This document shows, piece after piece, positions 50,034-53,568 of a stretch of 53,716 bases of DNA. A program made the translations under genes and the position numbers. Within the stretch, counting starts at the first letter, position 1. The number at the start of each line of letters is the position of its first letter. Below the pieces are notes generated by a model, which was not told the origin of the DNA, searched no databases, and was given only the letters and a program-made list of their open reading frames with translations. The DNA comes from an uncultured Pelagibacteraceae bacterium. Its GTDB lineage: Bacteria > Pseudomonadota > Alphaproteobacteria > Pelagibacterales > Pelagibacteraceae. The stretch lies in the NCBI GenBank assembly GCA_902623975.1, contig CACNVR010000007.1, positions 1-53,716 of the forward strand. The letters are read 5' to 3'.

Positions 50034-50476
50034 TGAAAAAATTTTTTTTTTTTATATTTATTTGGCTTTTATTTCCTTCTTATGTTGTTTCAGAAGAAAT
50101 TTTTCTTTCTTTAAAAAAAGATAAAGTAAACGTAAGATATGGTCCAAGTTTTGAGTCACCAGTTAAGTATATATATAAAAAAATTAATTTACCATTAAAG
50201 CAAATTGATAAAAAAGAAAATTGGAGAAGAATTATAGATTCTAAAAATAATAGTGGATGGATACATTGGTCCCAATTAAAAAAAAATAATTCAATAATTC
50301 TTTTAGAAGACAAAATTTTATTTAAAAATTCCTCCAATTTTTCAAAACCAATAGCAAAAATTAAAGAAGGTAGACTTCTAATAGTCCAAAAATGTGACGG
50401 TGAATGGTGTAAAGTCAAAACCCAAAAAATCAAAGGTTGGGTTAAAATAGATAAAGTTTGGGGTTTAATTAATTAA
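50033..50476 (+). CDS. Exported SH3-domain protein (two bacterial SH3 repeats)
   Basis: 147 residues. A signal peptide (MKKFFFFIFIWLLFPSYVVSEE) precedes two SH3b units: VNVRYGPSFESPVKYIYKK...WRRIIDSKNNSGWIHWSQL and ILFKNSSNFSKPIAKIKEGRLLIVQKCDGEWCKVKTQKIKGWVKIDKVWG. Such proteins are periplasmic and may bind peptidoglycan. It is joined by TAATG to the ThiF-like gene and overlaps the DUF3501 gene by 8 bases at its 3' end. Function unknown. Confidence 0.85.
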   Translation: MKKFFFFIFIWLLFPSYVVSEEIFLSLKKDKVNVRYGPSFESPVKYIYKKINLPLKQIDKKENWRRIIDSKNNSGWIHWSQLKKNNSIILLEDKILFKNSSNFSKPIAKIKEGRLLIVQKCDGEWCKVKTQKIKGWVKIDKVWGLIN

Positions 50477-51062
50477 AATCTGCTGACAGTGATTTCACTG
50501 TTGCTTCATTTAATTTTGTTGAATGTGAATATTCATTATGATTAATTCCAATTTCAATTAGTGATGAATTCGATTTAAAGTTTTTTATTTGTTCATCATT
50601 GAATTTAAAGTGTATAAATTGAACCGATGAAGCTTTTCCTTCTGCTGAGGTTCTGTCAACGTCTTCCTCTGGAACAGCATTAATTAAATCTCCCTCAACT
50701 TTCATATAAACTTTTTCTTCTATTCCACCTACTTTGCTTAAAAAAGCTGCTCTAGAAACGGGATTGTCAATTTCAAACATAAGTGTTGCTGTAAGTTCTT
50801 TTCCATTTGGTACTAAAGGATTGTAAGCTGATAGCTCATCTTTTAATTGTTCATCGCCACCTTTTTCAATATAAAGCATCTCTTGAACTTGAGCTAACAT
50901 TGTTTCATAGCTCTCAAAATAAAACGTTGCGTAAGGCCCTAAAGGAATTCTTCTATCTTTTTTGAATTCAACAATACTTTTTCTTAATTCTTTTCTTTGT
51001 TTTGTATAGACATCTAGAGGCATGATGTCTTCTTTTTGTATTAATCTTTTTTCTTTTGACAT
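50469..51062 (-). CDS. DUF3501 family protein
   Basis: 197 residues. The YFESYETMLAQVQEMLYIEKGG segment and the PNGKELTATLMFEIDNPVSRAAFLSKVGG region match the DUF3501 family, usually found beside an Fe-S oxidoreductase and rubrerythrin, as here. Soluble; no catalytic motif known. It begins three bases after the Fe-S gene, so the pair is one transcript. The family's function is unestablished; a redox or iron-stress role is inferred from context. Confidence 0.88.
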   Translation of the reverse strand: MSKEKRLIQKEDIMPLDVYTKQRKELRKSIVEFKKDRRIPLGPYATFYFESYETMLAQVQEMLYIEKGGDEQLKDELSAYNPLVPNGKELTATLMFEIDNPVSRAAFLSKVGGIEEKVYMKVEGDLINAVPEEDVDRTSAEGKASSVQFIHFKFNDEQIKNFKSNSSLIEIGINHNEYSHSTKLNEATVKSLSADFN

Positions 51063-51065
51063 ATT

Positions 51066-52397
51066 TTACAAATTATAACTTTTAGCCATTAATTCGATAG
51101 GATGTAGTGCCTCATCATTTGAGATATTTGTATCTGCTTCTAATTGTTTTAAATGTTTGCCTGCTAACGGACAATCTGAAGCCATATATTTATTATTTTT
51201 AGTCTTTATTTGTCTAGCTGTAGGTCTTCCAACTTTAATTGCTAAATCGTGTGTTTCTTTCATAACACCAAAAGTTCCTCCGTGACCAGCACACCTTTCA
51301 ACTACGTCAATTTTTATATTAGGAATTAATTTTAACATGTCTCTGGCCTTAATACCCATATTTTGAGCTCGTGCATGGCACGCATGATGAACAGTAACCC
51401 CACCATCTATTTCTTGTAAACCATCAGCTAATCCCTCATTGCTAGATATATCAACTACGTATTCATCAATATCCATTACATTAGCTGACAATTTCTTTAT
51501 ATTTTCATCGTTAGGGAGCAAAAGCGGCCATTCAAATTTTAACATTAAACCACAACTAGCTGTTAGAGTGACCACTTTGTAACCTTTGTCTATCCATTCT
51601 ATTAAATTTTTTGAAACTTTTTTGGCTTGTTCAACTACTTTTGGTAAATCTGCTTGTTCTAGGAACGGCATTCCACAACATCCAGGATATGACTCTTGAA
51701 CCTCAACTCCATTTTTCTTCAATACTTTTAGTGCCGCAACACCTGTATTTTTTTTATTGAAATTTACAAAACAAGTTGAATAAATCACAACTTTTCTGTC
51801 ACTTTTCTGACTTTCGAGATTTATTTTGTTAATATTTTTTTTAAAAAAATTAGAAAAAGTTTCTGAATTATATTTTGGAAGTTGAACTCTAATATCTATA
51901 CCTGCAATTATTTCTAATACTTTTCTGAAGAATTTATTTTTAATATTAGACAACCAATTAATTAAACCTGAAAACATCACACCGATTTTAGAATTTCTAT
52001 CTATTTCTGCTAATTGTTTAGGAACATTAGGTAATGTACCTTTCTTCTTTTGTGCCACTCTATATCTCAGCATTAAGTGAGGAAAATCTAGATTAAAATC
52101 ATGTGGAGGTACGTAGGGACATTTGGTCATAAAACACATGTCACATAATGTACATGCGTCTACAACTGGAGCAAATTGATCACTCGATAAGCTTTCTACG
52201 TCTTCGTTTTTTGACTCATCAATCATGTCAAAAAGTTTTGGAAACGAGTCACAAAGATTAAAGCATCTTCTGCAACCATGGCAAATATCAAACACTCTTC
52301 TCATCTCAGAGTCTAATTTTTCTGGATTCGAAAAATCTGGACTCTCAAAATCTATTGGATGTCTTATAGGGGCTTCTGTACTTCCTTCTTTACTCAT
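51066..52397 (-). CDS. GlpC/HdrD-like Fe-S oxidoreductase with two CCG domains
   Basis: 443 residues. Two 4Fe-4S motifs are at the N-terminus: CHGCRRCFNLCDSFP (near 40) and CTLCDMCFMTKCPYVPP. Two cysteine-rich CCG-type domains follow: YPGCCGMPFLEQ and CAGHGGTFGVM (the second lacks the CCG doublet). Soluble, no membrane helices; probably a redox partner of DUF3501 and rubrerythrin, substrate unknown. Its promoter region (52398-52514) contains a palindrome and a TATAAT box very near the ATG. Confidence 0.9.
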   Translation of the reverse strand: MSKEGSTEAPIRHPIDFESPDFSNPEKLDSEMRRVFDICHGCRRCFNLCDSFPKLFDMIDESKNEDVESLSSDQFAPVVDACTLCDMCFMTKCPYVPPHDFNLDFPHLMLRYRVAQKKKGTLPNVPKQLAEIDRNSKIGVMFSGLINWLSNIKNKFFRKVLEIIAGIDIRVQLPKYNSETFSNFFKKNINKINLESQKSDRKVVIYSTCFVNFNKKNTGVAALKVLKKNGVEVQESYPGCCGMPFLEQADLPKVVEQAKKVSKNLIEWIDKGYKVVTLTASCGLMLKFEWPLLLPNDENIKKLSANVMDIDEYVVDISSNEGLADGLQEIDGGVTVHHACHARAQNMGIKARDMLKLIPNIKIDVVERCAGHGGTFGVMKETHDLAIKVGRPTARQIKTKNNKYMASDCPLAGKHLKQLEADTNISNDEALHPIELMAKSYNL

Positions 52398-52514: not shown

Positions 52515-52539
52515 TTAGTGGGCGATAAACGCCCACTAA
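52515..52539 (-). terminator. Rho-independent terminator of rubrerythrin
   Basis: A 10-bp perfect stem around GTGGGCG/CGCCCAC with a 5-base ATAAA loop, 9 bp after the rubrerythrin stop. On the minus strand it is followed by AAAAAATTTTTT. It separates rubrerythrin from the Fe-S/DUF3501 pair, which have their own candidate promoter. Confidence 0.8.
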
Positions 52540-52548
52540 TAAAATATA

Positions 52549-52965
52549 TTAGCTAATAGATTCTAAAGTTTTTTGGAATTTACCAGCGTGAGATTTTTCA
52601 GCTTTTGCTAATGTTTCAAACCAATCAGCAATCTCCTCAAATCCTTCTTCTCTAGCAGTTTTTGCCATACCTGGATACATGTCTGTATACTCATGTGTTT
52701 CACCAGCTACAGCAGACTCTAAATTCGCTTTTGTTTCGCCTATAGGTTTGCCAGTTGCAGGGTCACCTACTTGCTCCAAATACTCAAGATGTCCATGTGC
52801 ATGACCTGTTTCACCCTCAGCAGTTGATCTAAATACTGTAGCTACATCATTGTAACCTTCAATATCAGCTTTTTGAGCGAAATATAGATATCTTCTATTT
52901 GCTTGACTCTCACCTGCAAATGCAGCTTTTAAGTTTTCTTCTGTTTTAGTTCCTTTTAATGACAT
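52549..52965 (-). CDS. Rubrerythrin-family di-iron protein (no rubredoxin domain)
   Basis: 138 residues, the ferritin-like erythrin domain alone. Iron ligands appear in LKAAFAGESQANRRYLYFAQKA, AEGETGHAHGHLEYL (ExxH), a central Glu-rich ETHEYTDMYPGMA segment and LAKAEKSHAGKF (ExxH). The C-terminal rubredoxin CxxC pair of classical rubrerythrin is absent, so electrons must come from another protein. It reduces peroxide or handles iron. It has AAGGAG before the ATG and is preceded by a TTGACT/TATATT promoter embedded in TTCTAAA repeats. Confidence 0.93.
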   Translation of the reverse strand: MSLKGTKTEENLKAAFAGESQANRRYLYFAQKADIEGYNDVATVFRSTAEGETGHAHGHLEYLEQVGDPATGKPIGETKANLESAVAGETHEYTDMYPGMAKTAREEGFEEIADWFETLAKAEKSHAGKFQKTLESIS

Positions 52966-52981
52966 TGTGATCTCCTTATTA

Positions 52982-53027
52982 TTCTAAAAATATAATGATT
53001 CTAAACTATAAGTCAATAGTTTAGAAT
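52982..53027 (-). promoter_or_regulatory. Rubrerythrin promoter inside TTCTAAA/TTTAGAA repeats (candidate Irr operator)
   Basis: A perfect 12-bp inverted repeat, ATTCTAAACTAT-N6-ATAGTTTAGAAT, lies at 52998-53027. The minus-strand -35 TTGACT (53016-53011) is in its centre and the -10 TATATT (52994-52989) follows after 16 bp. A third half-site, TTCTAAA, is at 52982-52988, at the transcription start. TTCTAAA/TTTAGAA resembles Irr (ICE) half-sites as I recall them, and irr itself is the adjacent upstream gene. Confidence 0.65.
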
Positions 53028-53065
53028 AATTATAATAAAGATCTTAAATAATTGATATTAAATGA

Positions 53066-53494
53066 TTAATTTTGATTTTGATTATCACTCGCAACTTTAA
53101 TTAAAACTTCGACTGAATTAATTTTCTTACCAGTGATATTTTTTTTTATATTAACCTCTTCAATTAAATCATTATGACAATCAATCAGCTCGTTTGTATC
53201 TTCATCAAAGAAATGATGGTGATTGGTAATATTGGTATCAAAATAACTTTTGTCACTATTAATTGAGATTTCTTTCAAGTAACCCTTATTTTTAAAAGCA
53301 TGAACTGTATTATAGACAGTAGCTAAGGAAATTTTTTCATTTAATGACTTTGAAATAATATTTGAAAGATCATTAATGGTAAAATGAAAGGTTTCGTCTC
53401 TATCAAACAACACTTCACAAATTTTAAGTCTTTGTTTTGTGGGTCTCAATCCCGATGCTCTCAATTTGTCAATAAATTCGATGTTTTTTGCCAT
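53066..53494 (-). CDS. irr: Fur-family iron/heme-responsive regulator Irr
   Basis: 142 residues. The winged helix (SGLRPTKQRLKICEVLFD ... ISLATVYNTVHAFKNKGYLKEI) is followed by the dimerisation half with the HHH motif in NHHHFFDEDTNELIDC, which replaces the classical Fur HHHDHxxC pattern and indicates the Irr subgroup. Irr senses heme status and controls iron genes in alphaproteobacteria. One TTCTAAA half-site (53510-53516) lies in its own promoter, shared with divergent fabA, suggesting autoregulation. The N-terminal heme regulatory motif of Bradyrhizobium Irr is absent, as in most relatives. Confidence 0.9.
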   Translation of the reverse strand: MAKNIEFIDKLRASGLRPTKQRLKICEVLFDRDETFHFTINDLSNIISKSLNEKISLATVYNTVHAFKNKGYLKEISINSDKSYFDTNITNHHHFFDEDTNELIDCHNDLIEEVNIKKNITGKKINSVEVLIKVASDNQNQN

Positions 53495-53509
53495 TGTTAA
53501 TTATAATAA

Positions 53510-53516
53510 TTCTAAA
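53510..53516. promoter_or_regulatory. Single TTCTAAA half-site in the irr-fabA intergenic region
   Basis: ATTCTAAACTTTA at 53509-53521 repeats the left arm of the rubrerythrin operator (ATTCTAAACTATA) with one difference. It lies 16 bp upstream of the irr ATG. It supports, but does not prove, Irr control of irr. Confidence 0.4.
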
Positions 53517-53568
53517 CTTTATGTATATTATAATTGACTAAAATCAAGTATTAAGGTGGTCAAATTCT

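Follow-up and report, generated by a model that had tools for sequence, protein, structure and literature searches.

The question raised by this locus is whether the rubrerythrin gene that adjoins irr in a SAR11 bacterium is controlled by the product of its neighbor, and which signal such control would serve. Surveys of marine microbes often find SAR11 to be the most numerous group, but no genetic system was available for it (PMC2864753), so that its regulation is hard to study. The window analyzed here, 53,716 nucleotides in all, is one contig from a 1.03-Mb SAR11 (Pelagibacteraceae) genome with 85% completeness. Within it, irr (53066..53494, minus strand) encodes a Fur-family regulator of the Irr lineage with 142 aa, predicted to bind all three of the boxes described below, and the predicted regulated gene is rubrerythrin (rbr; 52549..52965, minus strand; 138 aa; Pfam Rubrerythrin, 107 bits). 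The diiron four-helix domain of rubrerythrin is present; the C-terminal rubredoxin domain is absent from this protein, whose 138 aa match positions 3-145 of the 194 in the NCBIfam model, and over nearly its full length it matches solved rubrerythrins of 140-144 aa as well as sulerythrin, so that its closest matches are sulerythrin and short rubrerythrins. Genes for a CCG cysteine-rich Fe-S protein (51066..52397, minus strand) and a DUF3501 protein (50469..51062, minus strand) travel with rubrerythrin. A terminator-like hairpin (52515..52539, minus strand), directly 3′ of rubrerythrin, splits rbr from the CCG gene, even though these genes travel together.

The rbr promoter is sigma-70-like (52989..53016, minus strand), with TTGACT followed after 16 bp by the −10 TATATT (52994-52989). 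A preliminary description of this promoter had placed a 12-bp perfect inverted repeat on its −35, and we confirmed both the repeat and its position: the arms ATTCTAAACTAT (52998-53009) and ATAGTTTAGAAT (53016-53027) enclose a 6-bp centre over which TTGACT (minus strand, 53016-53011) sits, and a repeat search lengthened the arms to 19 bp at 95% identity (52991-53009 and 53016-53034). The same arm is also present, as had been claimed, in the irr promoter (53510-53516). The claim that an array of TTCTAAA half-sites constitutes the operator had to be replaced. By comparing the rbr and irr promoters, we found that the specific unit is an asymmetric 16-bp box of the 7-1-7 Fur type, TTTAGAATNATTATAA, which is used in pairs, and that the inverted repeat consists of the inner halves of two such boxes, A and B. 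Box B (53020..53035, plus strand) is an exact copy of the 16-bp putative operator, TTTAGAATAATTATAA, directly upstream of the rubrerythrin −35; box A (52990..53005, minus strand; TTTAGAATCATTATAT, 1 mismatch) spans the spacer between the −35 and the −10, with its outer end overlapping TATATT. The two boxes thus lie in opposite orientation on either side of the −35, with their centres 31 bp apart. Another exact box, TTTAGAATTATTATAA (53501..53516, minus strand), is found 7-22 bp before the irr ATG. We note that irr and fabA diverge from a common gap of ~75 bp (window 53495-53568), and that the irr box could affect fabA too. The third half-site proposed near the start site is indeed there (TTTAGAA on the minus strand, 52982..52988, reading TTCTAAA on the other strand), but it is found downstream of box A in only 3 of 80 rbr loci and, not being conserved, is probably incidental.

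Half-site counts turned out to be uninformative. Abundance of the half-site at random sites had been named in advance as a result that would speak against an operator, and TTTAGAA occurs 60 times in the window compared to 43 expected, such that the half-site is weak evidence alone. With the full box, exact matches to TTTAGAATNATTATAA in the whole genome number two, at rbr and irr, and 1-mismatch matches number three, namely box A and two sites (C1:88950 and C9:9546) that we rejected as operators, since both are inside open reading frames. When as many as two mismatches were allowed, we obtained 69 matches in this genome, no excess over the 78 of the reversed control; thus, only near-exact sites are informative in a genome scan. 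Exact boxes occur in 81 of 99 genomes of the same genus, the window's own included (125 hits compared to 23 for the reversed control), and four of the 18 genomes without one (G003, G097, G162 and G190) have boxes with 1-2 mismatches.

We assessed conservation of the boxes at 110 SAR11 irr loci, made up of the 30 best (own genome included) and the 80 best from two overlapping collections; with the overlap removed, 103 of the 110 are distinct, 76 of them with rbr. The gene next after irr is rbr in 80 of the 110 loci. In every one of these 80, the irr box is kept with 0-1 mismatch (60 exact; 76/76 distinct loci), and rbr is preceded by one or more boxes with 0-2 mismatches (an exact one among them in 65; again 76/76 distinct), although most of these loci are from close relatives and do not amount to 80 independent cases. 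The irr box was also found with 0-1 mismatch in 26 of the 30 loci without rbr (106/110 overall), while in the other four it has more than one mismatch, a result that counts against the operator model. In the gap between irr and its target, an opposite-strand box with 0-2 mismatches is present in 107 of the 109 loci that have at least 60 bp of sequence, a few of these 107 being box A read from the other strand. With box B as the anchor, a forward box (0-2 mismatches) occurs at a start offset of exactly +30, corresponding to centres 31 bp apart, in 56 of the 107 loci; taken together, the remaining offsets between 15 and 60 account for 7. In the remaining 51 loci, box A has more than two mismatches, which again counts against the model. 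TTGACA or TTGACT lies between the boxes in 106 of the 107.

Our main finding lies beyond the rbr promoter segment (52982-53027) whose coordinates the preliminary description gave: by comparison of these loci, the peroxide enzyme behind the conserved putative operator is one that has been exchanged several times within SAR11. In 28 of the 110 loci, among them L028, L097 and L170, the gene next after irr is katG, encoding a catalase-peroxidase; the remaining 2 of the 30 loci without rbr end at a contig edge, with the box still there. The one KatG that we tested by profile scored 1213 bits with the NCBIfam KatG subfamily (cut-off 981), and the others were assigned by their 82-99% identity to it. 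At least one box with 0-2 mismatches is present in the katG promoter in 28 of 28 loci, often as the same A/B pair, and where there is a single box it is again found just downstream of a TTGAC(A/T) motif. In none of the 110 irr loci do rbr and katG occur together, and the accompanying genes follow the same division: CCG is beside rbr in 80/80 loci and beside katG in 0/28, and DUF3501 is present in 57/80 rbr loci and 0/28 katG loci, the sequence of the other 23 rbr loci ending within 1.5 kb of rbr, too short to reach DUF3501. Searches of genomes gave similar results. We found no katG in 21 rbr genomes, which are 85-100% complete. A search of 24 genomes for rbr found it in a single rbr-locus genome; the other 23 include both katG-locus genomes and genomes in which no Irr was detected.

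We mapped the rbr/katG label onto a tree built from 141 columns, with 85 non-redundant SAR11 Irr proteins plus 11 outgroup rows. Many forks of this tree are open; parsimony counts 7 changes of the label, and at least 4 of them are forced by starred branches. Moreover, the KatG of L028 is 97% identical, in the part compared, to the KatG of L170, while the corresponding Irr proteins are only 62% identical; such near-identical KatG beside dissimilar Irr points to transfer of katG into the slot. Because the unrelated KatG occupies the same place with the same kind of box, the controlled function would be peroxide removal rather than rubrerythrin as such, and the katG replacement appears to be the stronger sign that peroxide defence is controlled. 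We met no report of a katG/rbr exchange in the parts of the literature covered by our searches. As a separate observation, genome G236 keeps a box (L191:1513-1528), and the gene next after its irr matches the Pfam aspartyl/asparaginyl hydroxylase family; neither rbr nor katG is found after irr within that stretch (L191).

The pairing of irr with rubrerythrin is not limited to SAR11. The classical Irr element, ICE, has the consensus TTTAGAANNNTTCTAAA, and Irr regulation is said to have been predicted across the class by Rodionov in 2006. We searched alphaproteobacteria class-wide with NCBIfam IrrA, which gave 127 of 240 genomes above the cut-off, and took the 30 top-scoring loci and 20 further ones (15 below the cut-off and 5 above). 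In 26 of the 30 top-scoring loci and 7 of the 20 further loci, rbr is within 700 bp after irr. ICE with 0-3 mismatches is present in 25 of these 33 irr-rbr gaps, all outside the window's family, compared to 0.38 expected from shuffling; the eight gaps with more than 3 mismatches are L204, L205, L209, L210, L215, L231, L247 and L252. Thus, Irr control of a neighboring rubrerythrin is probably old in the class. A SAR11-like box upstream of irr was not evident in the class-wide loci, with best matches of 2-8 mismatches. The SAR11 box is probably a modified ICE, in which one half keeps TTTAGAA and the other reads TTATAA; the boxes of the window do not have both palindromic halves of ICE intact, the changed half being TTATAA or TTATAT. 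At box A the TTATAA half overlaps the −10, which may be a reason for the change. In the portion of the literature that our searches reached, we met no report of the irr-rbr ICE or of Pelagibacter sites.

We also looked for members of a wider regulon. With a slightly looser pattern, TTTAGAAYNATTATAA, and as many as one mismatch, eight near-complete genomes gave 78 hits, the irr locus included, compared to 99 for the reversed control. Canonical ICE with as many as one mismatch was below its reversed control in all nine genomes searched, although the reversed pattern differs in word make-up and we claim no depletion. In a sample of exact boxes sought away from irr, 18 places were fetched, and 15 of these plus one other were examined. 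Of the 16, 12 are off the irr locus: three share a gap between peroxiredoxin and MBL-fold genes, three fall within open reading frames, and the others are isolated cases. The shared gap separates a divergent 1-Cys peroxiredoxin from an MBL-fold gene that is hydroxyacylglutathione hydrolase/sulfur dioxygenase-like, and the box in front of the peroxiredoxin is in some loci shared with that gene. An unselected search of 59 genomes gave 25 loci with a close peroxiredoxin, 4 of which have a box (0-2 mismatches) in the gap; two more genomes were found through the box itself (L185, L186, L187 and L311-L314 are the loci with this box). The peroxiredoxin box appears to be lineage-specific rather than general, and no close relative of this peroxiredoxin was found in the window's genome, 85% complete (best E 3.9e-4). 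Elsewhere, we noted four ICE-like palindromes within ~145 bp in a stretch (L287, G026:C1:76167-76312) with no open reading frame of at least 80 aa.

The protein encoded beside the boxes is of the Fur-family fold by its sequence (Pfam FUR, 78 bits; cut-off 23.1), and its best family is NCBIfam IrrA, at 131 bits, below the cut-off of 150; it scored 119.5 bits with FeRespRegIrr (cut-off 170) and 61 bits with the best PerR models. A divergent fabA lies within 200 bp of irr at 158 of 158 SAR11 irr loci, a count in which some genomes appear twice. The HxH haem motif reads HHH in the window's Irr and in 77 of the 85 non-redundant SAR11 rows; one of the remaining rows has HYH, and 7 gave no hit to the search expression. 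By eye, we saw no haem regulatory motif at the N terminus. All five ligands of a PerR-type regulatory metal (H37, D85, H91, H93 and D104) are present, and the positions aligned to C96 and C99 of the PerR structural Zn site are D and T. Since the other alphaproteobacterial Irr rows that we aligned share these five, they are not PerR-specific, and the residues are compatible with haem sensing and with Fe(II)/peroxide sensing alike.

From these comparisons, we consider it probable that the boxes are operators of the adjacent Irr-lineage protein, which would repress its own gene and would also occlude the promoter of the neighboring peroxidase gene. One Irr dimer would bind the irr leader just before the start codon, resulting in autorepression. 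At rbr, two dimers would flank the −35, bound to the same face of the DNA at a distance of about three helical turns, and since box A overlaps the spacer and the −10, bound Irr should exclude RNA polymerase. Irr would be released by the availability of haem or iron, by peroxide, or by both.

Published expression data bear upon the signal. In Ca. P. ubique, iron chelation increased rbr mRNA 1.57-fold, with no significant change in Irr protein, and irr mRNA clusters with stationary phase (PMC2864753). The increase in rbr, though small, speaks against the simplest haem model, because a repressor that is active at low iron predicts a fall. Sulfur limitation resulted in 0.17-fold rbr mRNA and 2.24-fold protein (PMC5069961). 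The Irr of Rhodobacter sphaeroides binds the promoters of mbfA and ccpA, both tied to oxidative stress, and deletion of irr in this organism raises peroxide resistance; the Irr-bound mbfA is also up ~1.5-fold at low iron, and ~9-fold with peroxide (PMC3413700).

We considered a variant of the Irr reading that differs in the signal, in which the Fe(II)-loaded protein represses, and either peroxide or loss of iron releases it, such that rbr and katG would be induced by peroxide. PerR of Bacillus subtilis and its relatives has a 7-1-7 box, TTATAATNATTATAA, represses itself and has peroxide-scavenging targets. The SAR11 box is nearly this box; the targets are irr itself and a peroxide enzyme, with the 1-Cys peroxiredoxin added in some lineages; the PerR ligands are in place; and rbr rises upon iron chelation (PMC2864753). 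Nevertheless, the ligands do not discriminate, as they are common to other alphaproteobacterial Irr rows, the HxH motif is retained, and PerR models score no higher than 61 bits compared to 131 for IrrA. Unlike the B. subtilis protein, moreover, the SAR11 protein is of the Irr lineage by both score and gene order, and it lacks Cys at the two aligned zinc-site positions. Leptospira PerRA and PerRB are also Fur-family peroxide regulators, and here too the comparison is of 61 bits on the SAR11 Irr with 131 for IrrA. We regard a PerR-like signal as possible but rather doubtful.

The increase in rbr at low iron (PMC2864753) would also be obtained if Irr activated rbr under this condition instead of repressing it, and Irr is able to activate, depending on the position of ICE (reviewed in PMC7762939). 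However, box A covers the spacer and the −10 and box B abuts the −35, which is an occluding arrangement, and the single-box katG loci again have their box just downstream of TTGAC(A/T). Activation is therefore unlikely.

Less likely still is a reading in which the boxes are bound by Fur rather than Irr, so that rubrerythrin would be coupled to free iron. In favor of Fur, the box is of Fur-family type, the window's genome has two further Fur-family genes, one at 141 bits, and a Fur target would be expected to rise with iron chelation as rbr does (PMC2864753). (The third Fur-family gene of this genome, at L202, G000:C9:11413-11763, scores weakly, at 31 bits.) To set against this, we compared 16 family members in which no Irr orthologue was found, 12 of which have a weaker Fur-family match. 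In these 16 genomes, TTTAGAAYNATTATAA gave 3 exact hits compared to 4 for the reversed control; since a Fur-family match occurs in most of them without any excess of the box over the control, Fur is an unlikely binder. Furthermore, exact boxes are concentrated at irr and its neighbor, and irr-rbr gaps elsewhere have ICE, the Irr element. Near the three exact boxes in genomes where Irr was not detected (L320-L322), we searched for katG, irr and fabA and did not find them.

The katG promoters provided a comparison at the same gene. The box is missing from seven katG promoters in whose genomes no Irr was detected (best matches of 4-5 mismatches), whereas equally distant KatG genes (~53%) beside irr (L162, L166, L167, L168 and L178) have boxes with 0-1 mismatch. 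There is one counter-case: an eighth such katG, in G170, which has no Irr match, does have a 1-mismatch box (L323). However, an exact box lies next to fabA where a contig ends (L177), which suggests that a break in the assembly removed the irr of G170. Taken together, these results make Irr the likely reader of the box. The Irr-type control of rubrerythrin that the preliminary description had predicted is thus well supported by comparison (boxes at 80/80 loci, ICE in 25/33 outer gaps, and no excess of boxes where Irr was not found), although not in the form of a half-site array. Its proposed link from peroxide handling to heme status is not supported in the same way: the HxH motif occurs together with all five PerR-type ligands, and the increase in rbr at low iron (PMC2864753) runs against simple repression by Irr.

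That AT-rich promoter sequence merely resembles an operator by chance is scarcely credible: SAR11 is AT-rich and matches with two mismatches or fewer are no commoner than the reversed control (69 compared to 78), but exact matches are confined to the locus, the boxes have a preferred spacing, and their conservation extends to 103 distinct loci and persists where the target gene has been exchanged.

Comparable systems are known from other bacteria. In Bradyrhizobium, Irr and ICE control bfr and the rubrerythrin-like blr7895, and both this system and that of R. sphaeroides (mbfA and ccpA) resemble the SAR11 locus in having an Irr-lineage regulator, an ICE-like operator in the promoter, and targets that are ferritin-like or peroxide-related proteins (PMC3413700). 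Unlike these systems, the SAR11 target is a stand-alone rubrerythrin, or katG, adjoining irr; the box is asymmetric, with a TTATAA half, and often paired 31 bp apart; and irr itself has a box, with no wider regulon above background. The near-identical box, predicted self-repression and peroxide-scavenging targets are instead shared with B. subtilis PerR.

Tentatively, and with less confidence than we place in the operators themselves, we suggest that the Irr iron regulon has shrunk in SAR11 to a nearly single-purpose peroxide switch, comprising irr and its neighbor and occasionally a peroxiredoxin, in which the neighboring slot would be a repeatedly exchanged cassette (rbr/CCG/DUF3501, or KatG from other SAR11 lineages) behind conserved operators. 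The signal of this switch may be Fe(II)/peroxide, as for PerR, instead of haem. The distribution of these enzymes has been described at a larger scale: katG is common to most offshore SAR11 genera (PMC12636525), and rubrerythrin was present in 4 of 28 SAR11 members of a Pacific gyre set (PMC11366302). The locus offers a small, testable circuit for peroxide defence in SAR11, and it makes the signal of Irr testable. In our data, one slot under predicted operator control holds either katG or rubrerythrin and never both, and the question of who keeps a catalase, on which Black Queen arguments turn, thereby becomes a question of gene exchange at a single locus.
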